From NCBI RefSeq assembly GCF_030537745.1, contig NZ_JAUNVI010000006.1:1-47507 (forward strand): 47,507 nt of DNA, read 5' to 3'. This document shows positions 9,146-46,205 of the stretch, piece after piece. The translations under genes and the position numbers were made by a program. Origin of the DNA: Ornithinimicrobium sp. (lineage in GTDB: Bacteria > Actinomycetota > Actinomycetes > Actinomycetales > Dermatophilaceae). The notes under the pieces are model-generated. The model did not search any database, was not told the DNA's origin, and saw only the letters and a program-made list of their open reading frames with translations. Positions within the stretch are counted from its first letter, which is position 1; each line of letters starts with the position of its first letter.

Positions 9146-9252
9146 TTTGACTCCTGACGCTCCTCGGGTCTATCGTCATGATCGTCAACGACTGACACCC
9201 ATGATCCCACGGTGGCCGTCGATGTCGGCCCCTGAGCCGAGAGGAGGCCCGC

Positions 9253-10293
9253 ATGACTGCGACCTCGACCCGAAAGGCCACCACGATGAGCCCGCGCGAG
9301 ACGAGCTCACGCGAGACGCCGTCAGCGCAACACGTGCTCCTCGTCGGTCTCCTGCTCGCGGTCGTGAGCGCCGCTACCTTCGGCACGGCGGGAGCGGTCG
9401 CCAAGAGTTCGCTGGTCCAGGGTTGGTCGCCCGCCGCTGCGGTGACCGTCCGGATCTCCGTGGGCGCCCTCATCCTCGCGGTGCCGACGGCCCGAGCGAT
9501 GCGCGGTCGGTGGCAGCTGCTGAGCTCGGTCAAGACCTGGGTGCAGATCGGACTGTTCGGCACCTTCGCCGTCGGTGGCTGCCAGCTGTTCTACTTCCTC
9601 GCCGTCCGCGAACTCTCCGTCGCCGTCGCGCTGATGATCGAATACCTGGGTCCGATCCTCGTCGTCGCCTGGTTGTGGCTGGCCAACGGCCATCGGCCGC
9701 GTCGACTCACGATGATCGGGATGGGGCTGGCCATCCTCGGCCTGGTGCTCATCCTCGACGTCCTGGGCGACGTCCAGGTCAGCACGCTGGGGGTGCTCTT
9801 CGGACTCGGCGCTGCGGTGGGCCTGGCCATCTTCTTCGTTATCGGGGCCGACGACTCCAACGGGCTGCCGCCGATCGCCTTCGCCTGCCTCGGCATGGCG
9901 GTCGGCGCCGTGATGCTCCTGCTGGTCGGCATGCTGCAGATCGTGCCCTTCGAGATCAGCACTACCGACGCGGTCCTGGCCGGGGTCTCGCTCCCGTGGT
10001 GGGTGCCGCTGATCTGGCTCGGCATCGTTGCGGCCGCCATCGCCTACGTGACCGGGATCGCCGCCAACCGCCGACTCGGCGCCAAGGTCGCCTCCTTCGT
10101 CGGGCTGACCGAGGTGATGTTCGCCGTGCTGTGGGCCTGGCTGCTGTTGGGCGAGATGCCGGCCACGATCCAGCTGCTGGGCGGCCTGCTCATCCTCGTC
10201 GGAGTCATCGCCGTCAAGCTCGACGAAGCCCCGGACGAGCCCCACATCGACGTCCCCTCCCCGGTCCTTCCCGCCGCCGACGCCAACTCCTAG
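9253..10293 (+). CDS. EamA/DMT-superfamily transporter
   Basis: A 346-aa membrane protein with about ten hydrophobic helices in two EamA repeats, expected to export small metabolites. Typical signatures are AATFGTAGAVAKSSLVQGWSP in helix 1-2, LSVAVALMIEYLGPILV at the end of the first repeat, and ASFVGLTEVMFAVLWAWLLLGE in the second. The first 30 residues are polar. ATG 9253 has an excellent GAGGAGG (9241-9247) at 5 nt, so this gene is leadered. The TAG stop shares the palindromic CTAG with the stop of the convergent S10 peptidase gene. Regulation by the adjacent CGNR protein is inferred from position. Confidence 0.9.
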   Translation: MTATSTRKATTMSPRETSSRETPSAQHVLLVGLLLAVVSAATFGTAGAVAKSSLVQGWSPAAAVTVRISVGALILAVPTARAMRGRWQLLSSVKTWVQIGLFGTFAVGGCQLFYFLAVRELSVAVALMIEYLGPILVVAWLWLANGHRPRRLTMIGMGLAILGLVLILDVLGDVQVSTLGVLFGLGAAVGLAIFFVIGADDSNGLPPIAFACLGMAVGAVMLLLVGMLQIVPFEISTTDAVLAGVSLPWWVPLIWLGIVAAAIAYVTGIAANRRLGAKVASFVGLTEVMFAVLWAWLLLGEMPATIQLLGGLLILVGVIAVKLDEAPDEPHIDVPSPVLPAADANS

Positions 10294-11825: not shown

Positions 11826-11832
11826 GGGTTCA

Positions 11833-11838
11833 ACACTA
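11833..11838 (-). promoter_or_regulatory. -10 element, leaderless promoter of S10 peptidase
   Basis: TAGTGT on the minus strand, 7 nt before ATG 11825. Confidence 0.55.
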
Positions 11839-11937
11839 GTCACGCCGTCGGACCCGGAGCCCTCGAACGAGTGCCCCGACCACCTTCTCGCGGTCCGCGC
11901 GCGCGCCGACGTCGGTGGTGGATGTTTGGATGGAGTC

Positions 11938-13998
11938 ATGACCAACCCGCTGCTGGCCCCCTCGACGCTGCCCTTCTCCCTGCCTGACTACGCCACCCTG
12001 ACCGACGCGCACGTGCGTGAGGCCCTGGCCGCGGGGATGGAGCAGCACCTCGCCGAGCTCGACGTGATCGCCACCGACACCTCGCCGGCGACCATCGCCA
12101 ACGTCCTGGAGGCCAGCGAGCGCAGCGGCGCGACGCTTGACCGGGCGCTGGCCGCCTTCTGGGTCGCACGCTCGGCAGACACCAACCCCGAACGCGACGC
12201 GATCATGGCCGAGTTCGCGCCCAAGATGGCCGCGCACACCGACGCGATCATGCTCAACCGCGCCCTCTATGAGCGGCTCCGTCAGCTCAATGCCGCTGCT
12301 GAGGGCGGGCAGATCGAGCTGGATGAGCAGGACGCCTTCAACCTCGCCGAGCGGCTCAAGGCCTACGAGCGCGGTGGGATCAACCTGCCGCAGGAGCAGC
12401 AGGCACGCCTGCGCGAGCTCAACGCCGAGCTCGCGACCCACTCGACGCAGTTCGACACCGCCCTCACCGCCGCGCGCAACGCCGCCGCCGTCCACGTCGC
12501 GGACGAGGCAGAGCTCGCTGGCCTGTCCGAGGGCGACAAGGCTGGGCTTCGGGCCGCTGCGCAGGCGCGCGATCTCGACGGTTGGCTGATCCCGATCGTC
12601 AACACCTCCGGCCAGCCGCTCCTGGACAGCCTGGCGGACCGCGGCCTACGCGAACGCATCTATCGCGCGTCGGTGACCCGGGGACTTTCCGGTGCGCACG
12701 ACAACCGCGACCGCCTGGTCACCATCGCGCGCCTGCGCGCCGAGAGGGCAGAGCTGCTGGGCTATCCCCACCACGCCGCCTACGCCCAGGAGGTCGGCTG
12801 CGCCCGCACGACGGAGGCGGTCAACGACATCCTGGCCCGCCTCACGCCCGGCATCCAGGAGCTGACCGGCAAGGAGGCTGCGGTCCTGGCCGCCCGCCTT
12901 GCCGATCTGGACCCGGACGCCACGCTGGAGCCCTGGGACTGGCAGTTCCTGGCGGCGAAGGAGGCGGCAGCGAGCTCCTTCGACACCGACCAGCTCAAGC
13001 CCTACCTGGAGTTCGAGCGGGTCCTGACCGAGGGCGTCTTCGCCGCGGCGACCGCGCTCTACGGCATCACCTTCGTCGAGCGTCCCGAGCTCGTCGGCTA
13101 CACCGCACAGGCTCGTGTCTTCGAGGTCCTGGAGGAGGACGGCAGCACCCTCGGCGCGGTCGTCATCGACCCCTACACCCGCCCGACCAAGCAGGGTGGC
13201 GCCTGGATGACCTCGCTCGTCGACCAGTCGCACCTGCTGGGCACCCAGCCGGTCGTCACCAACACCTGCAATGTCCCGCCGCCGGCGCAGGGCTCACCGA
13301 GCCTGATGACGTGGGACAACGTCATCACGCTCTTCCACGAGTTCGGGCACGACCTGCACGGGCTGCTCTCCGATGTCCGCTATCCCTCCCGCTCGGGCAC
13401 CTCCGTCCCTCGCGACTTCGTCGAGTTCCCCAGCCAGGTCAACGAGATCTGGGCCTGGGAGCCGAGCCTCATCGCGGCATACGCCCGCCACCACGAAACC
13501 GGTGAGCCGGTGCCGGCCGAGTGGGTCGACGCGCTCGTGGCCAACCGCCAGGAGAGCGGCCGCGACACCCTCGAGCTGCTCTCGGCGATGCTGCTCGACC
13601 AGGCCTGGCACCAGACGCCGTTGGTCGACCTGCCCGAGGACGGCAGCGGGGTGGAGGCCTTCGAGGCTGCCGCTCTGGAGCGGCTCGGCGCCGCTCACCC
13701 GCTGGTGCCGCCACGCTATCGCTCCGCCTACTTCCACCACATCTTCGGCGGTGGCTACTCCGCTGGTTACTACTCCTACCTCTGGTCCGAGGTCATGGAT
13801 GCCGACACGGTCGCGTGGTTCCGCGAGCAGGGCGACGAGGACAACGCAGGAGGTATGACGCGCGCCGCCGGCGACCACTTCCGCCGTGAGCTCCTGGGCC
13901 GGGGTGGCTCGATCGAGGCGATGGAGTCCTACCGCCGCTTCCGCGGCGCCGACCCAGAGGTGAAGCACCTGCTGGCGCGTCTGGGTCTAGCGAGCTAA
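11938..13998 (+). CDS. M3 family zinc metallopeptidase (peptidyl-dipeptidase/oligopeptidase type)
   Basis: A 686-aa thimet-type peptidase, normal length for Dcp/PrlC. The zinc motif HEFGHDLHG begins at residue 467, and VEFPSQVNEIWAW about 28 residues later supplies the third zinc ligand (Glu). The substrate-binding region near the C-terminus (FHHIFGGGYSAGYYSYLWSEVMDAD) is conserved. It should degrade short peptides in the cytoplasm; no export signal is seen. ATG 11938 begins the family's N-terminus (NPLLAPSTLPF-LPDY). An upstream open extension overlaps the divergent S10 start and is rejected. There is no convincing TANNNT element; GGATGGAG just upstream may help ribosome binding. Confidence 0.93.
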   Translation: MTNPLLAPSTLPFSLPDYATLTDAHVREALAAGMEQHLAELDVIATDTSPATIANVLEASERSGATLDRALAAFWVARSADTNPERDAIMAEFAPKMAAHTDAIMLNRALYERLRQLNAAAEGGQIELDEQDAFNLAERLKAYERGGINLPQEQQARLRELNAELATHSTQFDTALTAARNAAAVHVADEAELAGLSEGDKAGLRAAAQARDLDGWLIPIVNTSGQPLLDSLADRGLRERIYRASVTRGLSGAHDNRDRLVTIARLRAERAELLGYPHHAAYAQEVGCARTTEAVNDILARLTPGIQELTGKEAAVLAARLADLDPDATLEPWDWQFLAAKEAAASSFDTDQLKPYLEFERVLTEGVFAAATALYGITFVERPELVGYTAQARVFEVLEEDGSTLGAVVIDPYTRPTKQGGAWMTSLVDQSHLLGTQPVVTNTCNVPPPAQGSPSLMTWDNVITLFHEFGHDLHGLLSDVRYPSRSGTSVPRDFVEFPSQVNEIWAWEPSLIAAYARHHETGEPVPAEWVDALVANRQESGRDTLELLSAMLLDQAWHQTPLVDLPEDGSGVEAFEAAALERLGAAHPLVPPRYRSAYFHHIFGGGYSAGYYSYLWSEVMDADTVAWFREQGDEDNAGGMTRAAGDHFRRELLGRGGSIEAMESYRRFRGADPEVKHLLARLGLAS

Positions 13999-16935: not shown

Positions 16936-19018
16936 AGCTGATGAGATCGCGCGCGAGCGCCGCTGGGAGGTAGTCGTAGCGGGCGAAGGCCCGGGTGAAG
17001 GACCCGGTGCCCCGGCCCACGGAGCGCAGGTCGATCGGGTAGCGCGACAGCTCGTGCTGAGGCACGTCCGCAGTGACCATCGTGTAGCCCTCCAGGTCGG
17101 CGGGCTGGGTGGACTGCACCTGGGCACGCCGACCGCGCAGGTCCGCCAGGAGCGTCCCGACATGGTCATCCCCGACGGTGACCTCCACCGTGTCTACCGG
17201 CTCCAACAAGGACACCGTCGACTCGTTGGCAGCCTCACGCATGGCCAGTGCGGCGGCGTTCTGGAAGGCCAGATCTGAGGAATCGACCGAGTGCGCCTTG
17301 CCGTCGAGCAGGGTGACGCGCACGTCGACGCATGGATAACCGGCGAGCACACCGGCCTGCAGTTGGCTGCGCGCTCCTCGCTCCACGGACGGGATGTACT
17401 GTCGCGGCACCGCCCCCCCGACCACCTTGTCCACGAACTCGAAGCCGGCACCGCGCGGGAGTGGCTCGATCTCCAGGTTGACCACGGCATACTGCCCGTG
17501 GCCACCGGACTGCTTGACCAAGCGCCCCTGGGCCTGCACCCGCCGCACGAAGGTCTCCCGCAGCGAGGTCCTGACCTCCTCGGTGGTGACCTCGACATGG
17601 TGCTGGCCGCCCAGCCGGGCGAGCACCTCGTCGACGTGCGCGGGCCCGATCGTCCACAGCACGAGCTGGTGCGTCTCGGCGTTGCGCTCCAGCCGCAGGG
17701 TCAGGTCCTCGGCGAGCAGGCGTTGCAGGCTGGTGGCGAGCTTGTCCTCATCCTTCTTCGCCGCGGCCGCGATGGCAACGGGCAGCAGCGGCTCAGGCAG
17801 GAGCCAGGGCTCCACGACAGCAGGCGCCGCCGCGGTCGAGATGGTGTCGGCGGTCTGGGCGGTGACCAGCTTGGAGACGAGCACGATCTCGCCGGCGATC
17901 GCCGAGCTGCGGGTCAGGACACCACCGGGCACCGGCGACGTGATTTGACCGAGCCGCTCGTCCTCGTCGTCGTGGCCGGGGTGGCCCTCCACCTCACGTC
18001 CGTAGACCCACTCGAGGTGACCGCTGACGTGCAGCCGGTCATCGGCGTGCAGCGTGCCGGAGAAGATCCGGACCAGTGAGAGGCGCCCGACATAGGGATC
18101 GGTGGTGGTGCGGATGACCTGTGCGACCAACGGCCCGTCCGGATCAGCGCAGAGTCCGCCGAAGTCGCCGCCGGAGGTCGTCATCACCTGCGGCAGCCAC
18201 GCCACCTCGGGTGAGGGGAAGGCGTCGACGATCAGGTCCAGCAGCGCAGGGACGCCGACTCCCGTCGGTGGATTGACGGGCACGATCGGGAAAAAGCGGG
18301 CCGTGGCGGTGGCCTTGGACAGGTCAGCCCGCAACCCCTCCGGCTCCAGCTCCTCACCGGAGAGATAGCGGTCCAGCAGCGACTCGTCCTCGGACTGCTC
18401 GATGATCGACTCGATGAGGGTGCCGCGGGCCTCCGCCAGCTCCTCCTTCTCTTCCTTCGCCAGGGGTATGACGCCGCCCGTCGCGTCGGTCCGGCTCTGC
18501 TCCAGCAGGTCGATCACCCCGGCGAGCTCTACTGGATCGCCCTCGAGCACGGGAAGCGCCAGCGGCACTGCCGCACCGAAGACCCGGCGACAGTCAGCCA
18601 CCACGCTGTCCCAGTCGGCGCGCGCCAACTCCAGCTGGGTCACCGCGATCGCCCTCGGCACCCCCACCGCCTCGCACTCGCGCCACAGCATCCTGGTCGC
18701 CTCGTCGATCCCGCTGCCGGCTGCGACCACGAAGAGCACGGCATCGGCAGCCCTCAGCCCTGCGCGCACGTCCCCCACGAAGTCGGGTCGTCCGGGGCTG
18801 TCCACCAGCGTGACGACCGTCCCCGTCGGCTGGTGCACGGCGCTGGCCACCCCCAGTCCGGTCGAGGCCCCCTCCGCCTCCTTGACGTGTCCGAGCGTCC
18901 CGGAGGTGATCTGCTCCAGCAATGCGCTCTTACCCGTCCCCTGGGGTCCGACCAGGACCACGCTGCGAATCTGGGCGGGAGACGACGGGGAAGCAAATGA
19001 CGCGCCGCTGCGGTTCAT
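16934..19018 (-). CDS. Elongation factor G-like protein EF-G2
   Basis: A 694-aa paralogue of translation factor EF-G, of the type called EF-G2 in actinobacteria. Domain G comes first (residues 20 to about 280), then the beta-barrel domain II, and domains III-V, with KQSGGHGQYAVV and FVDKVVGGAVPRQYIPSVE clearly EF-G-like. G1 is intact (GPQGTGKS, 24-31), but switch II reads DSPGR (73-77) instead of DTPGH, losing the catalytic histidine. The G4 motif NKxD is TQLE (127-130). GTP hydrolysis and guanine specificity may therefore be reduced; a weak G4 is, as I recall it, a trait of this subfamily. The cellular role is not settled. TAGGTT 6 nt before the ATG suggests a leaderless mRNA. Confidence 0.88.
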   Translation of the reverse strand: MNRSGASFASPSSPAQIRSVVLVGPQGTGKSALLEQITSGTLGHVKEAEGASTGLGVASAVHQPTGTVVTLVDSPGRPDFVGDVRAGLRAADAVLFVVAAGSGIDEATRMLWRECEAVGVPRAIAVTQLELARADWDSVVADCRRVFGAAVPLALPVLEGDPVELAGVIDLLEQSRTDATGGVIPLAKEEKEELAEARGTLIESIIEQSEDESLLDRYLSGEELEPEGLRADLSKATATARFFPIVPVNPPTGVGVPALLDLIVDAFPSPEVAWLPQVMTTSGGDFGGLCADPDGPLVAQVIRTTTDPYVGRLSLVRIFSGTLHADDRLHVSGHLEWVYGREVEGHPGHDDEDERLGQITSPVPGGVLTRSSAIAGEIVLVSKLVTAQTADTISTAAAPAVVEPWLLPEPLLPVAIAAAAKKDEDKLATSLQRLLAEDLTLRLERNAETHQLVLWTIGPAHVDEVLARLGGQHHVEVTTEEVRTSLRETFVRRVQAQGRLVKQSGGHGQYAVVNLEIEPLPRGAGFEFVDKVVGGAVPRQYIPSVERGARSQLQAGVLAGYPCVDVRVTLLDGKAHSVDSSDLAFQNAAALAMREAANESTVSLLEPVDTVEVTVGDDHVGTLLADLRGRRAQVQSTQPADLEGYTMVTADVPQHELSRYPIDLRSVGRGTGSFTRAFARYDYLPAALARDLIS

Positions 19019-19105: not shown

Positions 19106-19600
19106 CTAAGCGGTGTCGGAACCCTCGGCGAGAAGGTCACGGGCGATGTCGCGCAGCCGGTCGTAGAGCCTGGCCACATCGGCCAGCTCGTCCGCGGAGA
19201 GCCGCTCGAAGACGACCGCCTTGGCCTCCTGTGCCGGGACCTCGAGCTCGGCCAGCATGTGCTCGGCGGCGGCAGTCACGCGCAGGAGCACCCGACGGCG
19301 ATCCTGCGGGTCGGGCCTGCGCTCCACCCAGTCCTTGCACGCCACCCGGTCGATGATCCCGCTGATGGTCGGCGTGGACACCCCGAGAAGGTCGGCCAAC
19401 GCCTGCCCGGTGGAGTCAGGCGCGGACCGCAGGATCGCGAGCACCTGCAGCTGCCGGATGGTCAGGTCGGTCGGGATGGGCAGGGGCGGGGCAAGGCGCA
19501 TGGCGATCGTGTGCAGCTCTGCCTCGGCCGCGGCAATCTGCGCGCACAGCAGCGAGACATCAGGCCGCGCGACCATCGTTACCGCACCTCCGAGTTCCAT
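19106..19600 (-). CDS. MarR-family regulator of the adjacent RND pump
   Basis: A 164-aa winged-helix protein. The DNA-binding part reads LTIRQLQVLAILRSAPDSTGQALADLLGVSTPTISGIIDRVACKDWVERRPDPQDRRRVLL, including the conserved D-x-R wing. Helices on both sides form the dimer interface. ATG 19600 is chosen since TAGCCT lies 7 nt before it; the frame is open much further, but that part is antisense to the pump gene. It is divergent from the RND gene with only 37 bp between the start codons, so it almost certainly represses the pump and itself, with an effector ligand yet unknown. Confidence 0.88.
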   Translation of the reverse strand: MELGGAVTMVARPDVSLLCAQIAAAEAELHTIAMRLAPPLPIPTDLTIRQLQVLAILRSAPDSTGQALADLLGVSTPTISGIIDRVACKDWVERRPDPQDRRRVLLRVTAAAEHMLAELEVPAQEAKAVVFERLSADELADVARLYDRLRDIARDLLAEGSDTA

Positions 19601-19607
19601 TTGGGTC

Positions 19608-19636
19608 AGGCTAACTATTGGCTTTACCATAACTAT
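19608..19636. promoter_or_regulatory. Shared MarR/RND control region with facing leaderless promoters
   Basis: Minus-strand TAGCCT (19613-19608) is 7 nt before the MarR ATG, and plus-strand TACCAT (19625-19630) is 7 nt before the RND ATG. The heptamer TAACTAT occurs at 19612-19618 and 19630-19636 (18-bp spacing), touching both -10 elements. A MarR dimer bound here would block both promoters. Confidence 0.6.
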
Positions 19637-19637
19637 C

Positions 19638-22600
19638 ATGTCACGCCTCACGTTGTTCAGCGTCCGCAACCGCGCGCTCATCGCCCTGGTTACGCTGTTC
19701 AGCGTCCTGGCGGGACTATGGTCCGCCGGCGCCCTTCCGCGCGAGCTGTTTCCGTCGCTGCAGTTCCCCGTGCTGGTCGTGGCCACCCCCGCCCAGGGCT
19801 CGAGCGCCTCCGTCGTCGAGGAGCAGGTGACCAAGCCGGTCGAGGTCGCCGCCCAAGGCTTGCCCAACGTGGTCGAGGTGTCCTCGACCAGCGCCGACGG
19901 CTTCTCCTCGGTCATCATCGAGCTGGACTACGGCACCGATATGGGCTCGGCCCAGACCGACCTGCAGCGCGCGGTGCTCGCGCTGCCCAACCTGCCCGAG
20001 AGCGCCACCCCGCAGATCTTCGCCGGCAACCTCGACGACTTCCCGATCATCCAGCTCGCCGCCTCCGGCGGGGACGGCGTGGACAGCGTCGACCTCGTCG
20101 ACCGCCTCCAGCGGGTGGTCATCCCGGACATCGAGGACCTCGACGGTGTGCGCGCGGTGACCCTGTCCGGCGTCGCCGACCGCGTCATCACCGTTGACCT
20201 GGACGAGGAAAAGGCAAAGGAGCAGGGCGTCAACGCCGCGATCGTCGGGCAGGTCCTGCAGACCAACGGCGTGGTGATGCCCGGTGGCCGGGTGCTGGAC
20301 GGAGCGACCGAGCTGCCGGTCCAGGTCGGCTCCCGGCTGACCTCGGCGCAGGAGATCGCCGCCCTGCCCCTGCTCACGCCGCAGGTGGTGGGTAGGCAGC
20401 AGGCCGCCGCGCAGGCCGCAGCCACCGCAGAGGCCGCAGCAGCAGCCGCGACGGAGGCAGGAGCGATCCCCGACCAGGACGGCGCGAGCGCTGCCGCCGC
20501 TGGCGAGGTGGAGATCCCCACTCTTGGCGACGTCGCGAAGGTGAGCCTGGAGGAGCGCCCGGCGACGGCATACACGCGGACCAACGGCGAGCCCAGCGTC
20601 GGTCTGGCGATCACCAAGACCCCCGATGGCAACGCCGTCGACATCAGCCACCAGCTCGCGGACATGGACGCCGACATCAGCACCGCGCTGGACGGCGGCG
20701 AGCTCGTCACCATCTACGACGGCGCCCCCTTCATCGAGAAATCGATCGAGGACCTGGCGACGGAGGGACTGCTCGGGCTCGGCTTCGCCGTCCTGGTCGT
20801 CCTGGTCTTCCTCCTGTCCGTGCGCCTGACCCTGGTCACCGCACTGTCTATCCCGCTGTCGCTGCTCATCGCGCTGATCGGGCTCAAGGTCCTCGGCTAC
20901 AGCCTCAACATCCTGACCCTGGGCGCGCTGACCATCGCGATCGGCCGCGTGGTCGACGACTCCATCGTGGTGATCGAGAACATCAAGCGGCACATCGGCA
21001 TGGGCCAGGATCGCCTCACCGCGGTGGTCGAGGCCACCCGCGAGGTCGCTGGCGCGATCACCTCGGCGACGGTGGCTACGGTGGCGGTCTTCCTACCGCT
21101 TGGCTTCGTCGAAGGTCAGGTCGGCGAGCTGTTCAAGCCGTTCGCCGTGACGGTTTCTCTGGCGATGCTGGCCTCGCTGCTCGTCGCGCTGACGATCGTG
21201 CCGGTGCTGGGCTTCTGGCTCCTGGCCGGGGGACACGGGGCCCGTCGCGGGCGCCACGACGGCGAAACCGCCGAGCATGCCGACCGGCCCGACGTGCTCC
21301 AGCGCGCCTACCTGCCCGTGTTGCGCGGCGTCCTGGCCCACCCGTGGGTGACGCTGCTGCTCGCCGCGATCGTCCTGGGTGGGACCGGTTGGTCGGCGAC
21401 CCTGCTCAAGACCCAGTTCATCGGCAGCTCGGGCGAGAACACCTTGCAGGCCACCCTGAGCATGCCCACCGGCACCACCCTGGACCAGACCGATTCCCAG
21501 GCCGGTCAGATCGAGACCTGGCTGGCCGGGCGCGACGACGTCACCTCCTACCAGGTCACGGTCGGCTCCCCCGGTGGGATCGAATCCGTCTTCCTGGGCA
21601 GCGGCGCCAACACGGCGACGGTGGCGCTGACCCTGGACGAGGGCATCGCCGGGGAGGAGTTCGCCAAGGAGCTGACCACCCAGATCCAGCGCGACCTGCC
21701 CAAGGGCGCGACCGTGGTGGCTCAGGCCGGGCAGCAGATGGGCCCCAGCGGCCTGGAGGTGCGCGTGCAGTCCCAGGACCCGCAGGCTCTGCGGGCGACC
21801 GCCAAGGACGTCACTGACCTGATGATGGAGTCCGGGGCCGCCGATGTCACCAACAACCTGACGGACACGATCCCGGCCCTGCGAGTCAGCGTCGACCGCG
21901 AGGCCGCGGCCGCAGCGGGCCTGACCGAGGCAGCGCTCGGGCAGGTCGTGCAGGCTGCCACCGACGGCACCACCGTGGGTCGGATCGAGCTGGACAACCA
22001 GCGCGTCGACGTGGTGGTGAAGGCGGGCGAGGCCGGTGAGCTGGACAAGCTCAAGAAGCTCCAGGTCGCGACCGACGCGGCCGGGGACCCGGTCACGCTG
22101 GACGACGTGGCCGACCTGGCGACCGTGGACGAAGCCGTGAGCATCACCCGCATCGACGGGCTGCGCGCGGCCACCGTCACCGGCAAATCCACCGGTGACG
22201 ACCTCGGCGCGGTGAGCGCCGACCTGCAGCAGCGGCTGGACGGCCTCGACGTGCCCGCCGGCGTGCAGGTGGAGCTGGGCGGAGTCAGCGCCGACCAGGC
22301 CAAGGCCTTCAGCGCGCTCGGTCTGGCGCTGCTGGCGGCGATCGCCATCGTCTATCTGGTGATGGTGGCGACCTTCAACAGCCTGCTTCAGCCGTTGATC
22401 CTGCTGGTGTCGGTCCCCTTCGCCGCCACCGGATCGATCGGCCTGCTGCTGGCGACCGACACCCCGCTGGACATCTCCTCCATGATCGGCATGCTCATGC
22501 TCATCGGCATCGTCGTGACCAACGCGATCGTGCTCATCGACCTCGTCAACCAGTATCGCGCCAGGGGCATGGACCGCACCACCGCCGTCGTCGAGGGCAG

Positions 22601-22916
22601 CCGGCACCGGCTGCGACCGATCTTGATGACTGCCCTGGCCACGGTCCTGGCGTTGACACCGATGGCGCTCGCGGTGACCGGCGGTGGCGCCTTCATCAGC
22701 CAACCGTTGGCCATCGTGGTGATCGGTGGCCTGATCAGCTCGACGTTGCTGACGCTGATCCTCGTGCCGGTGCTCTACGAGCTCGTCGAGCGCGGAGCCG
22801 CCCGGTTGGGCCGCTCTATCTCCACGCCGGCGGCTACGTCGTCGTCTGCGTCGACGGCCAAGTCCATGTCCACGCCCACGTCCCCGGCCGACGCCGCTTC
22901 GGGCGTCAATCCCTGA
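19638..22916 (+). CDS. RND-family efflux permease (SwrC/AcrB-like)
   Basis: A 1092-aa inner-membrane transporter of the resistance-nodulation-division superfamily, in the single-component form found in Gram-positives (compare Bacillus SwrC). The first TM helix (residues 12-30) is followed by a large extracytoplasmic domain. Then comes the TM block with LGALTIAIGRVVDDSIVVIENIKRH, whose paired aspartates are the proton-relay motif. A second repeat ends with LMLIGIVVTNAIVLIDLVNQYR. An Ala/Gln-rich insertion (about residues 250-280) is low complexity. No adaptor or outer-membrane gene is present, as expected. ATG 19638 has TACCAT 7 nt upstream. The last 11 bp overlap the convergent GNAT-nitroreductase gene. 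Confidence 0.92.
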   Translation: MSRLTLFSVRNRALIALVTLFSVLAGLWSAGALPRELFPSLQFPVLVVATPAQGSSASVVEEQVTKPVEVAAQGLPNVVEVSSTSADGFSSVIIELDYGTDMGSAQTDLQRAVLALPNLPESATPQIFAGNLDDFPIIQLAASGGDGVDSVDLVDRLQRVVIPDIEDLDGVRAVTLSGVADRVITVDLDEEKAKEQGVNAAIVGQVLQTNGVVMPGGRVLDGATELPVQVGSRLTSAQEIAALPLLTPQVVGRQQAAAQAAATAEAAAAAATEAGAIPDQDGASAAAAGEVEIPTLGDVAKVSLEERPATAYTRTNGEPSVGLAITKTPDGNAVDISHQLADMDADISTALDGGELVTIYDGAPFIEKSIEDLATEGLLGLGFAVLVVLVFLLSVRLTLVTALSIPLSLLIALIGLKVLGYSLNILTLGALTIAIGRVVDDSIVVIENIKRHIGMGQDRLTAVVEATREVAGAITSATVATVAVFLPLGFVEGQVGELFKPFAVTVSLAMLASLLVALTIVPVLGFWLLAGGHGARRGRHDGETAEHADRPDVLQRAYLPVLRGVLAHPWVTLLLAAIVLGGTGWSATLLKTQFIGSSGENTLQATLSMPTGTTLDQTDSQAGQIETWLAGRDDVTSYQVTVGSPGGIESVFLGSGANTATVALTLDEGIAGEEFAKELTTQIQRDLPKGATVVAQAGQQMGPSGLEVRVQSQDPQALRATAKDVTDLMMESGAADVTNNLTDTIPALRVSVDREAAAAAGLTEAALGQVVQAATDGTTVGRIELDNQRVDVVVKAGEAGELDKLKKLQVATDAAGDPVTLDDVADLATVDEAVSITRIDGLRAATVTGKSTGDDLGAVSADLQQRLDGLDVPAGVQVELGGVSADQAKAFSALGLALLAAIAIVYLVMVATFNSLLQPLILLVSVPFAATGSIGLLLATDTPLDISSMIGMLMLIGIVVTNAIVLIDLVNQYRARGMDRTTAVVEGSRHRLRPILMTALATVLALTPMALAVTGGGAFISQPLAIVVIGGLISSTLLTLILVPVLYELVERGAARLGRSISTPAATSSSASTAKSMSTPTSPADAASGVNP

Positions 22917-25071
22917 GCCGGGGGCTTCGCGGTGGCACGGCGCCCGGAGCACCCCAACGCCAGAGCGCGTAGACCTGCCGTGGGCGACCACCCGCGATCG
23001 AGACGTGGGTATGCAGCGCTTCAGCGGTGCGCGGGTCGTCGATCAGCTCGCTGAGCGGATGCGCTGACCATCCGGCGCGCTGCCCTGCCAGCCAGGTGGC
23101 CAGCAGCCGCTCCCCCAGGGGGCCCAGCTGCTCCAGCTCCAGGCCGGGCTCGGCACAGAGCGCGACGACCGTGCCGCGGGGACGCACCGCGCTGACCGCA
23201 GCGACGACCCTGTCCAGCCTGCTGGCGCCCAGCAGCCGGCGCAGGTGGGGCGAGCCGGTGAGGAGCTGCAGCCCCGCGGCCTGCGGAGGCGACAACCCCA
23301 ACACCTCCGCACTGAGCCCGTCGAGGTCATGCCGCGCATCTTTCGGAGTGAGCCTGAGCCAGGAGCCCAGCTCCTCCGCGGCCGGCCCAGTCAGGGTTCG
23401 CGCGGTCGCCGCAGGCAGGAGCCGCTCGATGAGATCATCGGGCAGGCGGGCCAGCTCGATCCCAGCCTCGGCGGCCAGGTCCTGCACGTCCTCGTCCCCG
23501 GGTTGGCGCAGGAACGCCGCGCGGGAGGTGCGCCGCGACTGCAGCTCGGCCACCGTCCAGCCCTGGGCAGGATTCGGTGCATCCCCGCTGGGGGAAAACT
23601 CCCGAAGGTGGACCACGGCCGCCTCGTGCCGGCCCTCGTCCACCGCCCAGGACACGTCCGCGGAGAGCCCGAGGTCACGAGCCACCACCTTCAGCGCCAG
23701 CGTGAGCGCCCCCAGGGAGAGCATCAGGTCGCGCCGGGTCGGGTCCCCCACCCTCAGCTCGCGGTCAGCGTGCCAGCCGAGGGCCAGGGTCCGCTCGTCC
23801 ACCGGTCGGAGCCGCCACGGCTGGGTGTTGTGCGCGCTCGGGGCGCGGCCCCAGTCAGCGCCACGAGCCAGCAACCGCGTGGTTGCAGGGGCATCGCTGC
23901 CTTCGCTCAAATCATCTCGCGCCGCGAGCACGAGGTTTCCTTCCTCGTCGTCGTCGTCGTCCGCCAGCCCGACCGGCCGCGTGTAGAAGCACGTTTCGTG
24001 CAGCGGCTCTCCCCCCATCGCGACGAACTGCGACTGCGAGCCGGAGTTGTCATCCTCGATGAAGGTCACGGACAGGTTCCGATAACCACCCGCGCGCAGG
24101 CCCACGAGGAGCTCATGGGAGAGCCGACGCATCAACCCCAGGCCCCTAGCATCTGGCACCGTGCCCTTGATGATGAGCACGGCGTCGCGGCGGTAGCGCC
24201 CCCTGGTTGCCATCAGAGCCACCAGGTCCACCGGCGACATCCGCCCACGACGCGAGCGCACGAAGCCCGTCAGGTCCGGCACCACGAGCACGAACGCGAC
24301 CGGCTCGCCGTCGCGTTCCAGCCAGAGCAGCAGCCGTTCGTCCAGCAGGTGGGCCAGCCCGTCGGTCGCCGCCTCGAGCTCGTCCGCCTCGATCGGGGTG
24401 TAATAGCCCAACTCAGCGAAGGAGGCATTGAGCATCCGGCGCAGGATCGGGAGCTGCTCGGCCAGGTGGCGCCGGTTGCCGCGTCGGACGATCAGAGCAT
24501 CGTCCGAGGGCTGGAGCGGGAAGACGCTGTCCGGATCCAGTCGCGCGACGTCCTCGCATCGCCAGGTCGCTCCGGTCCAGGTGCGCTCGAACCCGAGCGC
24601 TTCCCAGTCGGCGGGGTAGTGCTCAGGGTTCCACGGCCCGTCCAGGAAGCCCGGCTTGTCGAAACCTGAGGTGATCACGCCGCCGACCTGGTTGGGCAGC
24701 AACGACACCGGCCCCAGGAGACGGGTGCACCCGCGGGATCGAGCCTGGCGCACGGCATACCCCACCATCGCCGCCAGCGCCTCCCGGTCGGCAAACTCGG
24801 TCGCCCCCAGCAGCAGCGTCGCCTCCCCCAGCTTGGCATCCAGGCGCGCGTCGGTATGCAGCGTCGTGCGGCCGCGGACCGCTCCGGTGTGGTCCCGGAC
24901 CAGGTAGAGCTCGACCGGCCCGTGCCTGCGGTGCGGCCCCTTGCCGGACCACCACAGCCGGATCGAGCTGTGCCACAACGGCACACCGTGACTGGCGACA
25001 CGCGGATCCCAGTCCGGCAGGCGCAGGAAGGCCCGCAGATCCGCACGGGTGCGGACCCGACGGACCTGCAT
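22906..25071 (-). CDS. GNAT-like acyltransferase fused to an Acg-type nitroreductase
   Basis: A 721-aa two-domain protein. Residues 1 to about 380 resemble a two-module GNAT family whose members carry G-C-x4-GP, N-x-x-GG-x4-GFD-x-P, and NP-x-x-Y-x5-EALGF blocks. Here these read CTRLLGPVSLLPNQVGGVITSGFDKP and WNPEHYPADWEALGF. The second module ends with NLSVTFIEDDNSGSQSQFVAMGGEP. After an acidic Asp/Glu linker (about 385-392), a flavin nitroreductase domain begins with APSAHNTQPWRLRP and contains ELQSRRTSRAAF, both typical of Acg-like proteins. It is the last gene of the operon from 27467, and its ATG overlaps the previous stop (TGATG). Substrates are unknown; the fusion implies acyl transfer and redox chemistry on one molecule. 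Confidence 0.75.
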   Translation of the reverse strand: MQVRRVRTRADLRAFLRLPDWDPRVASHGVPLWHSSIRLWWSGKGPHRRHGPVELYLVRDHTGAVRGRTTLHTDARLDAKLGEATLLLGATEFADREALAAMVGYAVRQARSRGCTRLLGPVSLLPNQVGGVITSGFDKPGFLDGPWNPEHYPADWEALGFERTWTGATWRCEDVARLDPDSVFPLQPSDDALIVRRGNRRHLAEQLPILRRMLNASFAELGYYTPIEADELEAATDGLAHLLDERLLLWLERDGEPVAFVLVVPDLTGFVRSRRGRMSPVDLVALMATRGRYRRDAVLIIKGTVPDARGLGLMRRLSHELLVGLRAGGYRNLSVTFIEDDNSGSQSQFVAMGGEPLHETCFYTRPVGLADDDDDEEGNLVLAARDDLSEGSDAPATTRLLARGADWGRAPSAHNTQPWRLRPVDERTLALGWHADRELRVGDPTRRDLMLSLGALTLALKVVARDLGLSADVSWAVDEGRHEAAVVHLREFSPSGDAPNPAQGWTVAELQSRRTSRAAFLRQPGDEDVQDLAAEAGIELARLPDDLIERLLPAATARTLTGPAAEELGSWLRLTPKDARHDLDGLSAEVLGLSPPQAAGLQLLTGSPHLRRLLGASRLDRVVAAVSAVRPRGTVVALCAEPGLELEQLGPLGERLLATWLAGQRAGWSAHPLSELIDDPRTAEALHTHVSIAGGRPRQVYALWRWGAPGAVPPRSPRLRD

Positions 25072-25502
25072 CACCCGGCCTCCGAGGCCGCGTCACCGGG
25101 GCCACCGGCCACCCTCGGTGGCTGTCCCTCGCCGGGCAACCGCGAGAAGTGCTCGATGTGGGTCATCTCGCTGCTCTCCACCCTCCAGGAACCGTTGCTG
25201 TAGCCCGTCGGGTGGGCGACATGCAGCTGGGCGCTGACCGCGACCCCGGCCTGTTCGAGCGCAGCGAGCAACGACTGCGCCTGGGCGGACTCGTTGAAGA
25301 AGGCGACCACCCCGGTCGGGCGGGGCCCGGGACGCAGCCACTCACGGCGCACCAGCCCGGGCGCCGAGCGCAGCTGTCTGCGGACCTGCAGGAGCCAGCG
25401 CGGGGAGGCCGCGACGTGGTAGTCCCCGCCCTGCGGCATCAGCGTCAGCATCGCTTCTGCCTGGGCCAGCGCCGGGGCGGCGGAAAAGTCACGCGTGCGC
25501 AT
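25071..25502 (-). CDS. Operon protein of unknown function, possibly ABM-like
   Basis: A 143-aa protein with no family I can name. The segment LLQVRRQLRSAPGLVRREW...TGVVAFFNESAQAQSLLAAL has the same spacing of Arg, Leu, Pro-Gly and the buried strand as the neighbouring ABM-like protein (RGLQEMPGYLHHQ...GTIGYFATREDLLTF), so it may be a divergent paralogue. GSWRVESSEMTHIEHFSRLPGE looks like the last strands, and a Pro/Gly-rich tail follows. ATG 25502 overlaps the upstream gene by 14 bp, and its TGA overlaps the downstream ATG, so it is firmly within the operon. Confidence 0.65.
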   Translation of the reverse strand: MRTRDFSAAPALAQAEAMLTLMPQGGDYHVAASPRWLLQVRRQLRSAPGLVRREWLRPGPRPTGVVAFFNESAQAQSLLAALEQAGVAVSAQLHVAHPTGYSNGSWRVESSEMTHIEHFSRLPGEGQPPRVAGGPGDAASEAG

Positions 25503-25869
25503 CCGGCTCCTCCTCCTCGGGCTGCTGGTCCCCGGCGGCGGCAGCGTCACCGGCCGGCAGGTCGTAGAGGCGGATGTAGCCGGCGGTGGCGTGCTTGGTG
25601 CCGTCGGTGACCCACTGCATCAGGCCACGGTGGATGTCGCTGCGCGCGAAGGTCAGCAGATCCTCCCGCGTGGCGAAGTAGCCGATCGTGCCGAGGGCAA
25701 ACGGCGGATCCCAGTAGACCTGGTGGTGCAGGTAGCCAGGCATCTCTTGCAGCCCTCGGATCATCGCGCTCCACCGCTTGCTCAGGCGCAGCCAGGCCAA
25801 CGGGGAGTTGTAACTGGTGGCACCGACGAAGATCGCGCCCGCCTGCTGCTGCTGTGCACTGGTCGCCAT
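25489..25869 (-). CDS. ABM-fold (DUF4188/monooxygenase-like) protein
   Basis: A 126-aa protein with the look of a dimeric alpha/beta-barrel (ABM) domain. A first strand (AIFVGATSYNSP) is followed by a helix (LRLSKRWSAMIRGLQEMPG), two strands (YLHHQVYWDPPFALGTIGYFAT), a second helix (REDLLTFARSDIHRGLMQWV) and a final strand (AGYIRLYDL). DUF4188-type and CrtA-like proteins share this order, and some ABM proteins are cofactor-free or haem-binding oxygenases. The last 20 residues are Asp/Glu/Gln-rich. Its start and the ligase stop share one base (TGATG). Activity is a guess from fold. Confidence 0.65.
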   Translation of the reverse strand: MATSAQQQQAGAIFVGATSYNSPLAWLRLSKRWSAMIRGLQEMPGYLHHQVYWDPPFALGTIGYFATREDLLTFARSDIHRGLMQWVTDGTKHATAGYIRLYDLPAGDAAAAGDQQPEEEEPDAHA

Positions 25870-27467
25870 CAGCTGCTCCGCCCGTCTCGACTCAGGTAGA
25901 CCCGTTTGAGCTTGTCGGGCTGGCCGGCGAAGGGCCCGGTGCCCTCAGCGTGGACCCGCACGTCGATGTCGTCGCTGCGATCGCTCTCCTCCAGCGACTG
26001 GGCGAAGTCGCGGCTGGTGCGGGCCAGGTAGGCGACCACTCCCGTGCGCACGTCGGCTGCCAGCTGATCCCTTTCGGCGTCCGCCAGCGCCACCTCTGGC
26101 CGCAGCTCGACGTGGATGGTCGGTGTCTGGCTGGTGGCGTCGCCGTCACGGTCTTCCAGGGTCAGCGTGAAGGAGGCGATCTGGGCGGCTCGGCGCTCGT
26201 CGGTGTACAGACCGTTCTCGACGTCCTGGGGATAGATGTTGGCACCCATGAAGGAGATCGTGGAGTCGGCGCGGCCGAAAAGCAGCAGGAGCGGAAGCTT
26301 CATACCTTGCTTGTGGAACGCCTCCCGCGCCGGCAGCTGCCACTCCGGGTTGGCGCGCAGCACCGCGGCCAGGTCGTGCCAGTCCATCAACCGTGCCTCG
26401 TCGCCGATGTTGTAGCGCAGCTTGGGCGAGAGCACCGACGTCGAGGTGAGCGTGCACAGCAGCTCACCCTCGGGCGTGGTCTCCAGGTAGGTCTCCAGCG
26501 GGTTGTACTGAAAGATCATCGGCGTGCGGGCCTCTCCGGGCCCGAGCACCGCCTCACGCAGGTCGTGGTCGGCCAGCAGCGCGCGGCGCAGCCAGACCGT
26601 CAGGTCCGTCTCTCCGCCGATCCCGATGGTCAGGTCGGAGGCGCCGTAGCCCGAGCGCACCGTCAAGAAGCGCTCCTCGCAGTAGTCGCGCAGCGCCTCG
26701 GTCATGCCCTCTCCGCCCACCAACCCGTGCATCCGCCACGCCGGCCAGTCCCAGCCCTCCGCATCGAGGCGGTCGCGCAGGTCCTTGAGGAAAGGTGGAT
26801 AGGCCGCAACCAGGTAGGTGAACTCCGGACCGAAGTGGCGCAGCGTGTCGACGATCTTGTCCAGGTCGGGGCCGGTGTTCTTTACCATCGCGATCTTGGC
26901 CATCGCGATCCCGGTGTTGGTCCCGGTCGCCCACGCGCCCATCGAGTAGGCGTTGATCACGAAGAGCCGGTCCTCCCCGCGCATCATCAGCGAGGCGAAG
27001 CCGGCGACGTTGCGGTGCACGTCCGCCAGTTCGTCGCGGCCGCGGACCCAGTTGTATGGCGTGCCCGAACTCCCGGAGGACTCGTCCACGATGGTGCCCC
27101 GCAGCTCCAGCACACCCCGCCGCGAGCGCTGCGCCTCCGTGTGCCGTTTGACGTAGGACTCCTTGTCGGTGGGCGGATAGTTGTCCAGGTCCCACCAGCG
27201 GAAGCGCCAGTCGTGCTCGGCCAGGTGCGCCCGGTAGGCGGGCACGTTGAGCGAGGCCAGCTGGCAGGTCATCCACGCATGCCAGCGGGCGAAGTCGCCC
27301 ATCCACGGCTGGTAGTGCGTCGCGGTGAACCGCCACGTCGCCGGGTGGACCTTGTAGACGCTGTAGGTGCTGGACAGCGCCGACGTGCCTGCGCGCAGCG
27401 CGCCCCGCCGCGCCTGCGTGAGCGGACTGCTCGTCCAGATCCTCTGCCCGACCTCCCGGAATACCAT
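25869..27467 (-). CDS. Phenylacetate-CoA ligase-like adenylating enzyme
   Basis: A 532-aa member of the PaaK-like branch of the ANL (AMP-forming) superfamily. The phosphate loop appears as DESSGSSGTPYNWVRG. Later motifs are SGYGASDLT, YNPLETYLE, KLRYNIGDEARL (adenosine-binding Asp) and LFGRADSTISFMGANIYPQDVE, equivalent to the hinge region that in PaaK leads to the C-terminal domain. A lysine near the end (PDKLKRVYL) could be the catalytic one. It should activate a carboxylate, probably aromatic, as an acyl adenylate or thioester. It leads the four-gene operon, starting 22 bp after the glucose-6-phosphate dehydrogenase homologue on the same strand but with its own TACAGT element 6 nt before ATG 27467. 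Confidence 0.82.
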   Translation of the reverse strand: MVFREVGQRIWTSSPLTQARRGALRAGTSALSSTYSVYKVHPATWRFTATHYQPWMGDFARWHAWMTCQLASLNVPAYRAHLAEHDWRFRWWDLDNYPPTDKESYVKRHTEAQRSRRGVLELRGTIVDESSGSSGTPYNWVRGRDELADVHRNVAGFASLMMRGEDRLFVINAYSMGAWATGTNTGIAMAKIAMVKNTGPDLDKIVDTLRHFGPEFTYLVAAYPPFLKDLRDRLDAEGWDWPAWRMHGLVGGEGMTEALRDYCEERFLTVRSGYGASDLTIGIGGETDLTVWLRRALLADHDLREAVLGPGEARTPMIFQYNPLETYLETTPEGELLCTLTSTSVLSPKLRYNIGDEARLMDWHDLAAVLRANPEWQLPAREAFHKQGMKLPLLLLFGRADSTISFMGANIYPQDVENGLYTDERRAAQIASFTLTLEDRDGDATSQTPTIHVELRPEVALADAERDQLAADVRTGVVAYLARTSRDFAQSLEESDRSDDIDVRVHAEGTGPFAGQPDKLKRVYLSRDGRSS

Positions 27468-27489: not shown

Positions 27490-28869
27490 TCAGCGGGGCG
27501 GCCTGTCCCATCCTTCGGGCCCGGCCGAGCCAGCGGCATACTCCTCCAGCTCGACGTGGCCCGCCTCCCACTCGGCCAGCACCGGCTCCACGATCCGCCA
27601 CAGCTCCTCTGCCTCGTCGCCGCGGATCGTCATAAACGGGTCGCCGTCCAGGATGGCGCCCAAAATCTCTCCGTAGGGCAGCATCCGCGGTTTGCCCAGC
27701 TCGGCCTGCAACTCCTTCTGCTCCAGCTCGAAAGGATCGCCCTCGGCGTTCATCGACAGGTCCAGCGTGACGGCGCCGGGCTTGATGTCCAGGATGAGAC
27801 GGTCCGGTCTCGGGCTGTCCTTGAAGCCGCTGGGCACGTGAGCCGGCGCCTTGAAGGTGACGGTGATGCGCTTGCACGCGGTGCCGATCGCCTTACCGGA
27901 CCGGAGCACGAACGGCACCCCCGCCCACCGGGCGTTGTCGAGCTGCAGGGTCAGTTGCGCGAGCGTCTCGGTCCCACGCTGGGGATCGACTCCGTCCTCG
28001 TCGACATAGTTCGGGATCTGCCGGTCACCGAGGGTCCCCGCCGTGTAGCGCGCACGCCGCGATGCGGACGCGGGGTCGTGCCCCCACGGGTGCACCGCGC
28101 GCAGCACCTGCGCCTTGAGCGAGCGGATCTCCTCGGCGTGCATCGTCGCCGGCGCCTCGAGGGAGAAGAAAGCCAGGATCTCCAACAGGTGCGACTGGAT
28201 CATGTCCAGGAGCGCACCGGCCTTGTCGTAGTAGCCGGCCCGGCCCTCCAAGGCCAGCGACTCGTCATAGGTGATCTCGACCCGATCGATGTGTTCGTTG
28301 GACCAGATCGGCATGAGCAGTCGGTTGGCGAAGCGGATCCCGAGCAGGTTGAGGATGGTGTTGACGCCCAGGAAGTGATCGATCCGGTAGATGTCGTTCT
28401 CCGGCACCACCCGCAGCAGCTGCTTGTTGAGCTCGCGCGCGGAGGCTAGGTCGCTCCCGAACGGCTTCTCCAGCGCCAGCCGGGTCCCCCGAGGGACGCC
28501 GATCTTCTCCAGCAACGCGCACACCTTGACCGTCACCGACGGGGGCAGCGCGAAGTAGATGATCAGCGGCTCCGTGGTCGCTGCCAGCAGTGAGCTCAGC
28601 TGACCCTGGTCCAGGGCATCCGTCTGCACATATCTGGTGCCGTCCACCACGGGAGCGGCCAGGTCGTCCGGCAGTTGCGCCTGCGCCATCGCCCCACGGA
28701 CCCTGCTGCGCCAGTCGTCGTCGCTCAGCTCGAGGCGGTCAGCTCCGACCACGGTGACCGCGCGCTGCGGCTCCTCCTTGAAAAGGGTGCCCAGCCCCGG
28801 CAGGAGAAGCCGTTGGGTGAGGTCACCGGAAGCGCCGAGGATCAGGAGGGTGGTGGGCTGGTCGGTCAT
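27490..28869 (-). CDS. zwf: Glucose-6-phosphate dehydrogenase homologue
   Basis: A 459-aa protein of the G6PD family. It has the NADP-binding GASGDLTQRLLLP at residues 12-24, the EKPFG motif at 134-138 and the substrate/catalytic region YRIDHFLG at 161-168. The catalytic histidine of DMIQSHLLE is present. However, the lysine that follows in typical enzymes (RIDHYLGKE), which contacts the substrate phosphate, is Val169 here, with Asn170 after it. Phosphate binding may rely on other residues or the substrate may differ; a shorter actinobacterial Zwf1-like subgroup is also possible. ATG 28869 has TACCCT 6 nt upstream. The distal open frame is rejected because the Rossmann strand begins a few residues after this ATG. 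Confidence 0.85.
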   Translation of the reverse strand: MTDQPTTLLILGASGDLTQRLLLPGLGTLFKEEPQRAVTVVGADRLELSDDDWRSRVRGAMAQAQLPDDLAAPVVDGTRYVQTDALDQGQLSSLLAATTEPLIIYFALPPSVTVKVCALLEKIGVPRGTRLALEKPFGSDLASARELNKQLLRVVPENDIYRIDHFLGVNTILNLLGIRFANRLLMPIWSNEHIDRVEITYDESLALEGRAGYYDKAGALLDMIQSHLLEILAFFSLEAPATMHAEEIRSLKAQVLRAVHPWGHDPASASRRARYTAGTLGDRQIPNYVDEDGVDPQRGTETLAQLTLQLDNARWAGVPFVLRSGKAIGTACKRITVTFKAPAHVPSGFKDSPRPDRLILDIKPGAVTLDLSMNAEGDPFELEQKELQAELGKPRMLPYGEILGAILDGDPFMTIRGDEAEELWRIVEPVLAEWEAGHVELEEYAAGSAGPEGWDRPPR

Positions 28870-42951: not shown

Positions 42952-42952
42952 T

Positions 42953-44041: not shown

Positions 44042-44055
44042 CGCCGCGCCCTTTG

Positions 44056-44073
44056 TCGCCGAGACTGCGGCGA
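44056..44073. terminator. Hairpin between converging moaA and moaD
   Basis: TCGCCG and CGGCGA with a 6-nt loop (AGACTG) form a perfect 6-bp stem between convergent genes. No T-run follows, so it is a weak candidate. Confidence 0.35.
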
Positions 44074-44097
44074 TCCGTTGGGCCTCTGATCGCCGGC

Positions 44098-44337: not shown

Positions 44338-44341
44338 GGCC

Positions 44342-44989: not shown

Positions 44990-45049
44990 GGGATTCGTGG
45001 CGGCTTTCCGTGGCAGGTGGGCTGGTGAGAGCAAGTCGGCCCGAGGGCA

Positions 45050-46198: not shown

Positions 46199-46205
46199 AG
46201 GGCCG

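Follow-up and report, generated by a model that had tools for sequence, protein, structure and literature searches.

The systems closest to the locus reported here are the acyl-oxazolone clusters TyzACB and TrzAS. The accessible parts of the two reports on them (PMC10404671; PMC12856293) describe an N-acyltransferase with an aromatic amino acid as substrate, ATP-dependent closure of the oxazolone ring by an enzyme of the ThiF type, and desaturation with O2 by a flavin-dependent oxidase (FDO). Oxazolones are opened by acid and by alcohols (PMC12856293). In these clusters and in OxzAB of Pseudoalteromonas rubra the adenylating enzyme is adjacent or fused to the FDO. The clusters for stieleriacine, thalassotalic acid and kyonggic acid also combine an N-acyl amino acid synthase (NAS), a nitroreductase-family desaturase and an adenylating protein (PMC12479983); they are of the ThiF and NAS types, the available parts of that source mention no ABM protein, and the words 'ligase' and 'ANL' are absent from its text. 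We identified an operon of four overlapping genes on the minus strand (positions 22906 to 27467) of contig NZ_JAUNVI010000006.1 of Ornithinimicrobium sp. (assembly GCF_030537745.1). This stretch of 47,507 nucleotides, hereafter the window, belongs as contig 11 to a draft genome of 3.03 Mb. The operon is predicted to encode a PaaK-like ligase of the ANL superfamily, an ABM-type protein, a protein of 143 residues (p143) and a fusion of a GNAT acyltransferase with an Acg-like FDO flavoprotein. By itself it may suffice to make an N-acyl (fatty acyl) derivative of an amino acid or amine, a reading in which our confidence is slightly below even. The original prediction for this DNA, made from the sequence alone, knew of no named pathway with this gene set, and we likewise found no description of it in the open literature, a search that left most subscription papers uncovered.

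In the 5' to 3' order of the minus strand, the operon consists of the genes for the ligase (25869..27467, 532 amino acids, ATG at 27467 and stop at 25871-25869), the ABM-type protein (25489..25869, 126 amino acids), p143 (25071..25502, 143 amino acids, stop at 25073-25071) and the fusion protein (22906..25071, a reading frame of 721 amino acids). The stop codon of the ligase gene and the ATG of the ABM gene have one base in common (TGATG), the ABM and p143 genes overlap by 14 bases, and the stop codon of p143 again shares one base with the ATG of the fusion gene (TGATG); the four-gene overlapping operon had been predicted with exactly these coordinates and overlaps. An alternative in-frame ATG at 27539 would give a longer ligase. 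Within the fusion, the GNAT part forms the N-terminal portion of about 368 amino acids (23967..25071) and the flavoprotein part follows (22906..23931). Mean ratios of non-synonymous to synonymous substitution rates (dN/dS) between the window and five Serinicoccus loci, given without a significance test, were 0.19 for the ligase (range 0.16-0.20), 0.37 for the ABM protein (0.34-0.46), 0.55 for p143 (0.47-0.65), 0.30 for the GNAT part (0.28-0.33) and 0.41 for the flavoprotein part (0.39-0.44). These ranges indicate that all parts of the operon evolve as proteins, p143 being the least constrained.

To describe the conservation of the gene set, we retained as relatives the best 80 of 459 loci by ligase score from named genomes, a sample which is biased toward close relatives and spans, by the titles of the genome records, at least 26 named genera, including Brevibacterium, Micromonospora and Streptomyces. 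Presence was counted by six-frame profile searches, and separate gene calls came from a simple script based on GC position. The ligase, ABM and flavoprotein genes were found on one strand and in one order in all 80 loci, and a GNAT gene lay between ABM and flavoprotein in 78 of them. An acyltransferase, an activating enzyme and an FDO are therefore encoded together, as in the acyl-oxazolone clusters, in 78 of the 80 loci. Among 31 genomes of the window's genus, all four components were present in the same 15 and absent from the other 16 (profiles A3 and A5 of this survey include the window's own rows); the lone exception among these 16 is a 22-bit flavoprotein match in genome G428, and three of the 16 are at most 84% complete. 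The genes thus stay together and are not scattered, which was the outcome of the neighbourhood survey proposed with the original prediction. This all-or-none presence makes the operon look like a dispensable unit that is gained or lost as a block. Of 149 genomes in the order, 10 contain ligase homologues of at least 240 bits and 13 have a match at E 0.001; at the level of the class, 18 of 296 genomes have a ligase match at E 0.001.

The gene set, its order, the fusions, the homologies and the all-or-none presence were observed directly; for the chemistry, we infer every step, substrate and product as follows. The GNAT part would N-acylate an amino acid or amine with an acyl thioester as donor. 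The PaaK-like ligase would then use ATP to adenylate the carboxylate of the N-acyl product, leading to cyclisation to an oxazolone or to hand-over of the activated compound. The Acg-like flavoprotein, with flavin mononucleotide (FMN) and O2, would desaturate the acylated residue, and the ABM protein, as a core chain together with p143 carrying the N-terminal motif and the tail, would oxidise the product further or shield it while it is reactive. Because the operon has the same three roles as TyzACB/TrzAS, we suggest that the ligase activates an acylated amino acid or amine, which the FDO then oxidises. The original prediction had the carboxylate activated, then transferred, and the product reduced or oxidised. 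This order is probably wrong: the comparison with TyzACB/TrzAS, as far as the two reports could be consulted (PMC10404671; PMC12856293), and the relatives of the GNAT part at the position of a ceramide synthase (see below) argue for transfer to an amine first, followed by activation and oxidation.

With the acyl-oxazolone clusters TyzACB, TrzAS and OxzAB, in the form given by the accessible parts of their descriptions, the operon has in common that an N-acyltransferase, an ATP-using carboxylate activator and an FDO are clustered, with the activator adjacent or fused to the FDO. It differs from TyzACB and TrzAS in having an ANL ligase where these have ThiF, in its extra ABM protein or proteins, in an acyltransferase that is unrelated in sequence to the TrzA orthologues, and in an FDO that falls in a separate clade. 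The neighbour of the operon FDO is the PaaK-like enzyme and not a ThiF protein (the 80 loci were not screened for ThiF). In the window's own genome the TrzS model matched two places only: one is the operon FDO, and the other is a ThiF domain (45707-46096) belonging to a protein with ThiF and rhodanese domains some 18 kb from the operon. We therefore rejected plain membership of the acyl-oxazolone clusters, given an ANL enzyme instead of ThiF, an acyltransferase unrelated in sequence to TrzA and an FDO outside FDO-A as represented by TrzS. The operon, which is no member of these clusters, may yet work in a similar way.

The ligase scored 34.2 bits against the PaaK model TIGR02155, whose equivalog cut-off of 646 was not reached, and matched PaaK structure 2y4o with E 1.3e-5 (E 1.9e-11 in a profile search); no Pfam match was obtained at E 1. 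Its likeness to PaaK (2y4o, 2y27, 4r1l) is a sequence-profile relation across the N-terminal and central region, and the operon ligase is longer (532 residues versus about 440). The motifs DESxGSxGxP, YGASDL, GD and GRxD are invariant in 13 homologues, and the C-terminal lysine K521 is nearly invariant. We take these to be the core motifs of ANL enzymes, that is the phosphate-binding Ser/Gly loop, the ribose-binding Asp and the C-terminal Lys. Judged by this 13-row alignment and our understanding of the motifs, the ligase qualifies as a predicted member of the ANL superfamily, so that its first description as a PaaK-like ANL ligase was retained. We propose that it is a putative activator of the carboxylate, and cyclase, of the N-acyl product.

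The flavoprotein part of the fusion scored 117 bits (119.5 in another scan) against the Acg/Rv3131 model NF047509, below the curated cut-off of 199, and the nearest solved structure by sequence is Acg (2ymv; E 1.8e-15 in a profile search). We assign it by sequence to the FDO proteins of the nitroreductase superfamily. Its closest structure and closest profile are thus those of the Acg/Rv3131 FMN proteins (FDO-B), from which it differs in scoring below the family cut-off and in belonging to a separate clade of ligase-neighbouring genes. Nineteen alignment columns are identical across seven TrzS oxidase domains and seven operon FDOs; of these, one Trp and one Ser are replaced in each of the four FDO-B proteins compared, and one Arg in three of them. 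The fusion as a whole scored 17 bits against a GNAT library model, below its cut-off, so that the predicted fusion of an acyltransferase-like and an Acg-like flavin domain in one protein of 721 amino acids was borne out with both model scores below their cut-offs.

Full-length relatives of the GNAT part (ACYLTRANSFERASE) were found in Roseomonas by a protein search of plasmids, some of them annotated as 'dATP pyrophosphohydrolase'. The best match (E 9e-14) covered 100% of the query with 28.2% identity. In the reverse comparison, the Roseomonas protein scored 112.7 bits against the profile of the operon GNATs (best of 100 shuffles, 0.7), and it has 21 of the 43 residues invariant in these GNATs, compared to one to three in five slid controls. 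Small acetyltransferases matched weakly and over the last third only. In R. marmotae the gene follows two LptF/LptG permease genes and precedes a nucleotidyltransferase and a cytidylyltransferase gene; the region also encodes an acyl carrier protein, an acyl-AMP ligase, an epimerase and a class I/II pyridoxal-phosphate aminotransferase, the last of which we take to be serine-palmitoyltransferase-like. In the Caulobacter region CC_1168-CC_1152, according to the available parts of the report (PMC11324152), CC_1156 and CC_1155 encode LptF2 and LptG2, CC_1154 the N-acyltransferase CerS, and CC_1153 and CC_1152 nucleotidyltransferases. The gene order of R. marmotae agrees with that from CC_1156 to CC_1152, which makes the Roseomonas gene a CerS gene by position, not by assay. 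Because of the full-length relation to this protein, it is a fair inference that the operon GNAT is probably an amine N-acyltransferase. Its likeness to CerS/bCerS, taken from the accessible parts of PMC11324152 and PMC11087976, thus lies in full-length homology to the Roseomonas protein at the same position. As a difference, no serine palmitoyltransferase or headgroup genes recurred beside the operon when the neighbours of the 80 ligases were clustered (E 1e-12, clusters in at least three genera), a procedure that short proteins may escape.

The ABM protein of the window scored 25.9 bits against PF13826 (Monooxy_af470-like), just above the gathering cut-off of 25 and in line with the ABM fold that had been predicted for it. 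Among 26 aligned ABM members, 23 matched PF13826 at E 0.1 or better; a PDB profile search gave no credible structure match for the ABM protein. Single ABM proteins consist of three parts: an N-terminal RTxDFS motif, a core (H80, W86, R100) and a GYxNG tail. The window ABM keeps the core and lacks the motif and the tail of its single-chain relatives, and p143 keeps the N-terminal motif and a GYSNG tail and has lost the core. Library scans of p143 gave no credible family and no match to PF13826. It aligned over residues 1-131 with the single ABM protein of locus L050 (blastp E 8.5e-15) and was found at 36 bits by an ABM profile built without it, and an equivalent stretch opens the ABM2-GNAT-FDO frame in all five Serinicoccus loci (L058 and L061 translated). 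The original prediction had listed p143 as a protein of unknown family; on the blastp and profile matches, the Serinicoccus frames and the motif parts we rejected a new family and assign it as a degenerate second ABM (ABM2).

The distribution of the three ABM parts was scored with patterns picked after viewing the alignments, in 89 loci of which 80 are the named ones; the 89 rows hold repeats, as L025/L096 and L026/L124 are probably the same contigs (L025 and L026 lie outside the 80). All three parts occur in one chain in 45 of the 80 loci. One frame with the tail before the core was found in 28 loci, the N-terminal motif being matched as well in 20 of these and unmatched in eight. In six loci (five Serinicoccus and Kineosphaera), as in the window, the motif and the tail sit in a separate part behind a core chain, and in one locus (L135) the core pattern was unmatched. 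The tail is present once per locus throughout, and the core is present everywhere except in L135, on one chain or two. Genome G067 encodes a core chain together with a complete ABM chain and is an apparent intermediate. The core and the motif-tail halves occur in two opposite orders, which suggest at least two duplications with reciprocal decay. The simplest reading of the sequences is that the ABM protein and p143 would act as one functional pair.

A census of stop-free frames in the 80 loci, in which ABM matches of at least 20 bits were counted, revealed several fusions. GNAT and flavoprotein lie in a single frame in 12 loci (five Serinicoccus, five Brevibacterium and two Nesterenkonia; L133 was excluded, having only a GNAT fragment in the flavoprotein frame), and ABM and GNAT do so in 12 (five Serinicoccus, five Pseudoclavibacter and two Microbacterium), the same five Serinicoccus loci counting in both classes. 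At least two ABM matches fall within a single frame in 21 loci. In the more distant genome G130, ligase and flavoprotein share a frame of 914 codons. From this frame and the GNAT-FDO frames, the flavoprotein is therefore found joined to both the acyltransferase and the adenylating enzyme. In G133 a GNAT-domain protein, an FDO and a ligase are encoded consecutively, without ABM. On a plasmid of Gemmatirosa kalamazoonensis (Gemmatimonadota; L175, 6880-9299) an FDO gene is directly followed by a ligase gene, and no operon-type ABM or GNAT was found within 8 kb of the pair. The FDO-ligase pair thus spans phyla.

Several observations weigh against an N-acyl pathway of the proposed kind. The ligase lies outside PF00501 and is not among the 17 PF00501 matches of its own genome, and it could merely produce a CoA thioester. 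Comparison of the operon GNAT with five TrzA orthologues, taken by position from five of eight loci, gave an hhalign probability of 0.6% and thus no sequence relation to TrzA, the one acyltransferase covered by this comparison. Two Streptacidiphilus loci (L088 and L111) have no GNAT at the usual place, the search being confined to the locus, and the ligase-FDO loci of G130, G219, G035, G133 and Gemmatirosa show no operon-type GNAT or ABM. An FDO tree was built from 26 of the 85 operon FDOs, the five other ligase-neighbouring FDOs of these same genomes (three of them cut by hand-set limits), all eight TrzS orthologues (above the NF005901 cut-off) and 19 of 20 FDO-B proteins (above the NF047509 cut-off; locus L165 was left out because the cutting pattern did not fit). 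With the FDO-A type represented by the TrzS orthologues only, all 31 ligase-neighbouring FDOs were set apart by a branch that has support values of 99/96 and is present in 98% of the bootstrap trees. All 85 operon FDOs also scored higher with the FDO-B profile (19 sequences) than with the TrzS profile (eight sequences), which counts against direct kinship with the oxazolone desaturases. The role given to the ABM protein is a guess.

The named relatives of the ligase are solely CoA ligases and synthetases, mainly phenylacetate-CoA ligases, and ABM and nitroreductase family members act on aromatic substrates in other pathways. Both points would suit a catabolic or detoxifying operon: a foreign acid would be converted by the ligase to its aryl- or acyl-CoA, undergo oxidation or reduction by the flavoprotein and the ABM protein, and be acetylated by the GNAT part. 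We consider such an operon unlikely, since no CoA-pathway, ring-cleavage or regulator gene recurred at a fixed place across families in the neighbour clusters (short proteins again escaping), and since the end-to-end match of the GNAT part is to the ceramide-synthase-position protein and not to the small acetyltransferases. In addition, most actinobacterial FDO genes lie near lipid-biosynthesis genes, according to the accessible parts of PMC10404671. The ceramide-synthase connection, together with the acyl-AMP ligase gene in the ceramide-type region of Roseomonas, would also fit with an amide-forming lipid pathway without ring closure. Here the GNAT part or a second amine would receive a fatty or amino acid activated by the ligase, and the flavoprotein would desaturate the resulting aminolipid, which would be di-acylated or amide-linked. 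GH3 enzymes are members of the ANL superfamily. A GH3-like enzyme for ornithine lipids has been reported in the available text of PMC12493201. We regard this pathway, too, as improbable: the ANL enzyme stands next to the FDO even where a CerS-type GNAT is lacking, suggesting that the product of the ligase passes to the FDO, and the neighbour clusters contain no recurrent carrier-protein gene, of which a short one could escape.

The proximity of the FDO to the FDO-B type (Acg, Rv3131) rather than to TrzS by profile score also raises the question of whether the operon has a role in stress or redox processes and makes no small-molecule product; the Acg-like protein would then bind FMN, and the other genes would modify cell lipids. 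FMN binding has been proposed for Acg in mycobacteria. We hold this function to be very unlikely. The constant pairing of the FDO with an adenylating enzyme, and its one fusion with it, is not described for FDO-B genes in the accessible parts of PMC10404671, and the Trp, Ser and Arg residues which the operon FDOs share with TrzS mostly or entirely differ in the FDO-B proteins. The N-acyl pathway with transfer, activation and oxidation in this order remains our preferred reading.

Apart from the conserved set, the clusters of neighbouring genes in the 80 loci revealed no gene with a constant position across families (short proteins could escape). In 11 loci, all of Microbacteriaceae, an Abhydrolase_3 esterase gene directly follows the flavoprotein gene on the same strand (L073, L074, L076, L082, L075, L080, L083, L084, L087, L129 and L132; four Agreia, five Subtercola and two further Microbacteriaceae). 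Three of these esterases were scanned and scored 207-230 bits, and in nine of the 11 loci the first matched residue lies at most 6 bases from the end of the flavoprotein frame. The gene is absent in Agreia L130, and the sequence of Subtercola L078 ends too early to show it; five Pseudoclavibacter loci carry a related hydrolase on the opposite strand, at 18-27 bits to the same profile. The esterase is likely a fifth-step or release enzyme in Microbacteriaceae and would suit a hydrolysable product. Three Streptomyces and two Embleya loci have a MATE transporter gene (opposite strand) and dnaB downstream, which looks like a common chromosomal position.

Immediately upstream of the window's operon, a zwf-like glucose-6-phosphate dehydrogenase gene (27490..28869, start approximate; minus strand; PRK12853, 611 bits) stops 22 bases before the ligase ATG; it may be part of the same transcript and lies outside the conserved set. 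In Serinicoccus, zwf occurs in four of the five loci and directly before the ligase in three, and elsewhere one 35% match was found among 87 loci. We rejected zwf, RND, MarR, VIT1 and MFS genes as general parts of the system, as they recur in four of the five Serinicoccus loci only. Downstream (19106-22916), a minus-strand gene for a MarR-type regulator overlaps with the beginning of a plus-strand RND efflux frame of the AcrB/MMPL type, and the 3' end of that frame shares 11 bases with the end of the operon. At 42421-46291 the window contains a molybdenum-cofactor-like group with a MoCF domain, a MobA-like transferase, a ThiF protein with a rhodanese domain and a small, presumably MoaD-like frame; in genome G067, some 2.3 kb past the operon, there is a frame that starts similarly (L023, 16030-16308).

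Among the relatives, Auritidibacter ignavus (L133) has a GNAT match divided between two frames (10233-12376) and, about 5 kb downstream, a further partial match to GNAT and FDO (17130-17502). The FDO match of Pseudoclavibacter terrae (L090, 11600-12833) runs across frames, reflecting either decay of the gene or a sequencing error. In G035 the FDO-ligase pair is preceded upstream by a protein (L031, 13840-15240) with a weak radical-SAM match (16.7 bits, below the cut-off). A distant ligase branch of 28-30% identity occurs in genomes of family f35 (L052, L054 and L055, ligase at about 9200-10700) with no ABM, GNAT or FDO matches alongside; the common neighbour is FAD-binding-like by its start, and two of the three loci also have a short gene in common near the ligase. 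These three loci probably represent a different system.

Beyond the preferred reading, we suggest tentatively, and with more doubt than confidence, that the operon represents a third, separately assembled kind of pathway to N-acyl-amino-acid lipids, widespread among actinobacteria. In it, the places of the TyzA-type acyltransferase and of the ThiF cyclase would be taken by a CerS-like GNAT and an ANL cyclase of the PaaK type, and a duplicated ABM enzyme would have been divided, in two opposite arrangements, into a core half and a motif-and-tail half acting as a pair. If so, the compounds made would form a new family of lipids, of the oxazolone-like or dehydro-amino-acid type. The acyl-oxazolones and the N-acyl dehydro-amino acids, recently found as a class of bacterial lipids, are linked to ThiF-type proteins in the accessible parts of the literature. 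A compact ANL-based counterpart would widen this lipid class, give a simple genomic hook for finding it and supply hosts for studies of its role, and the reciprocal decay of the duplicated ABM domains would offer a clean test of which parts that little-known family needs.

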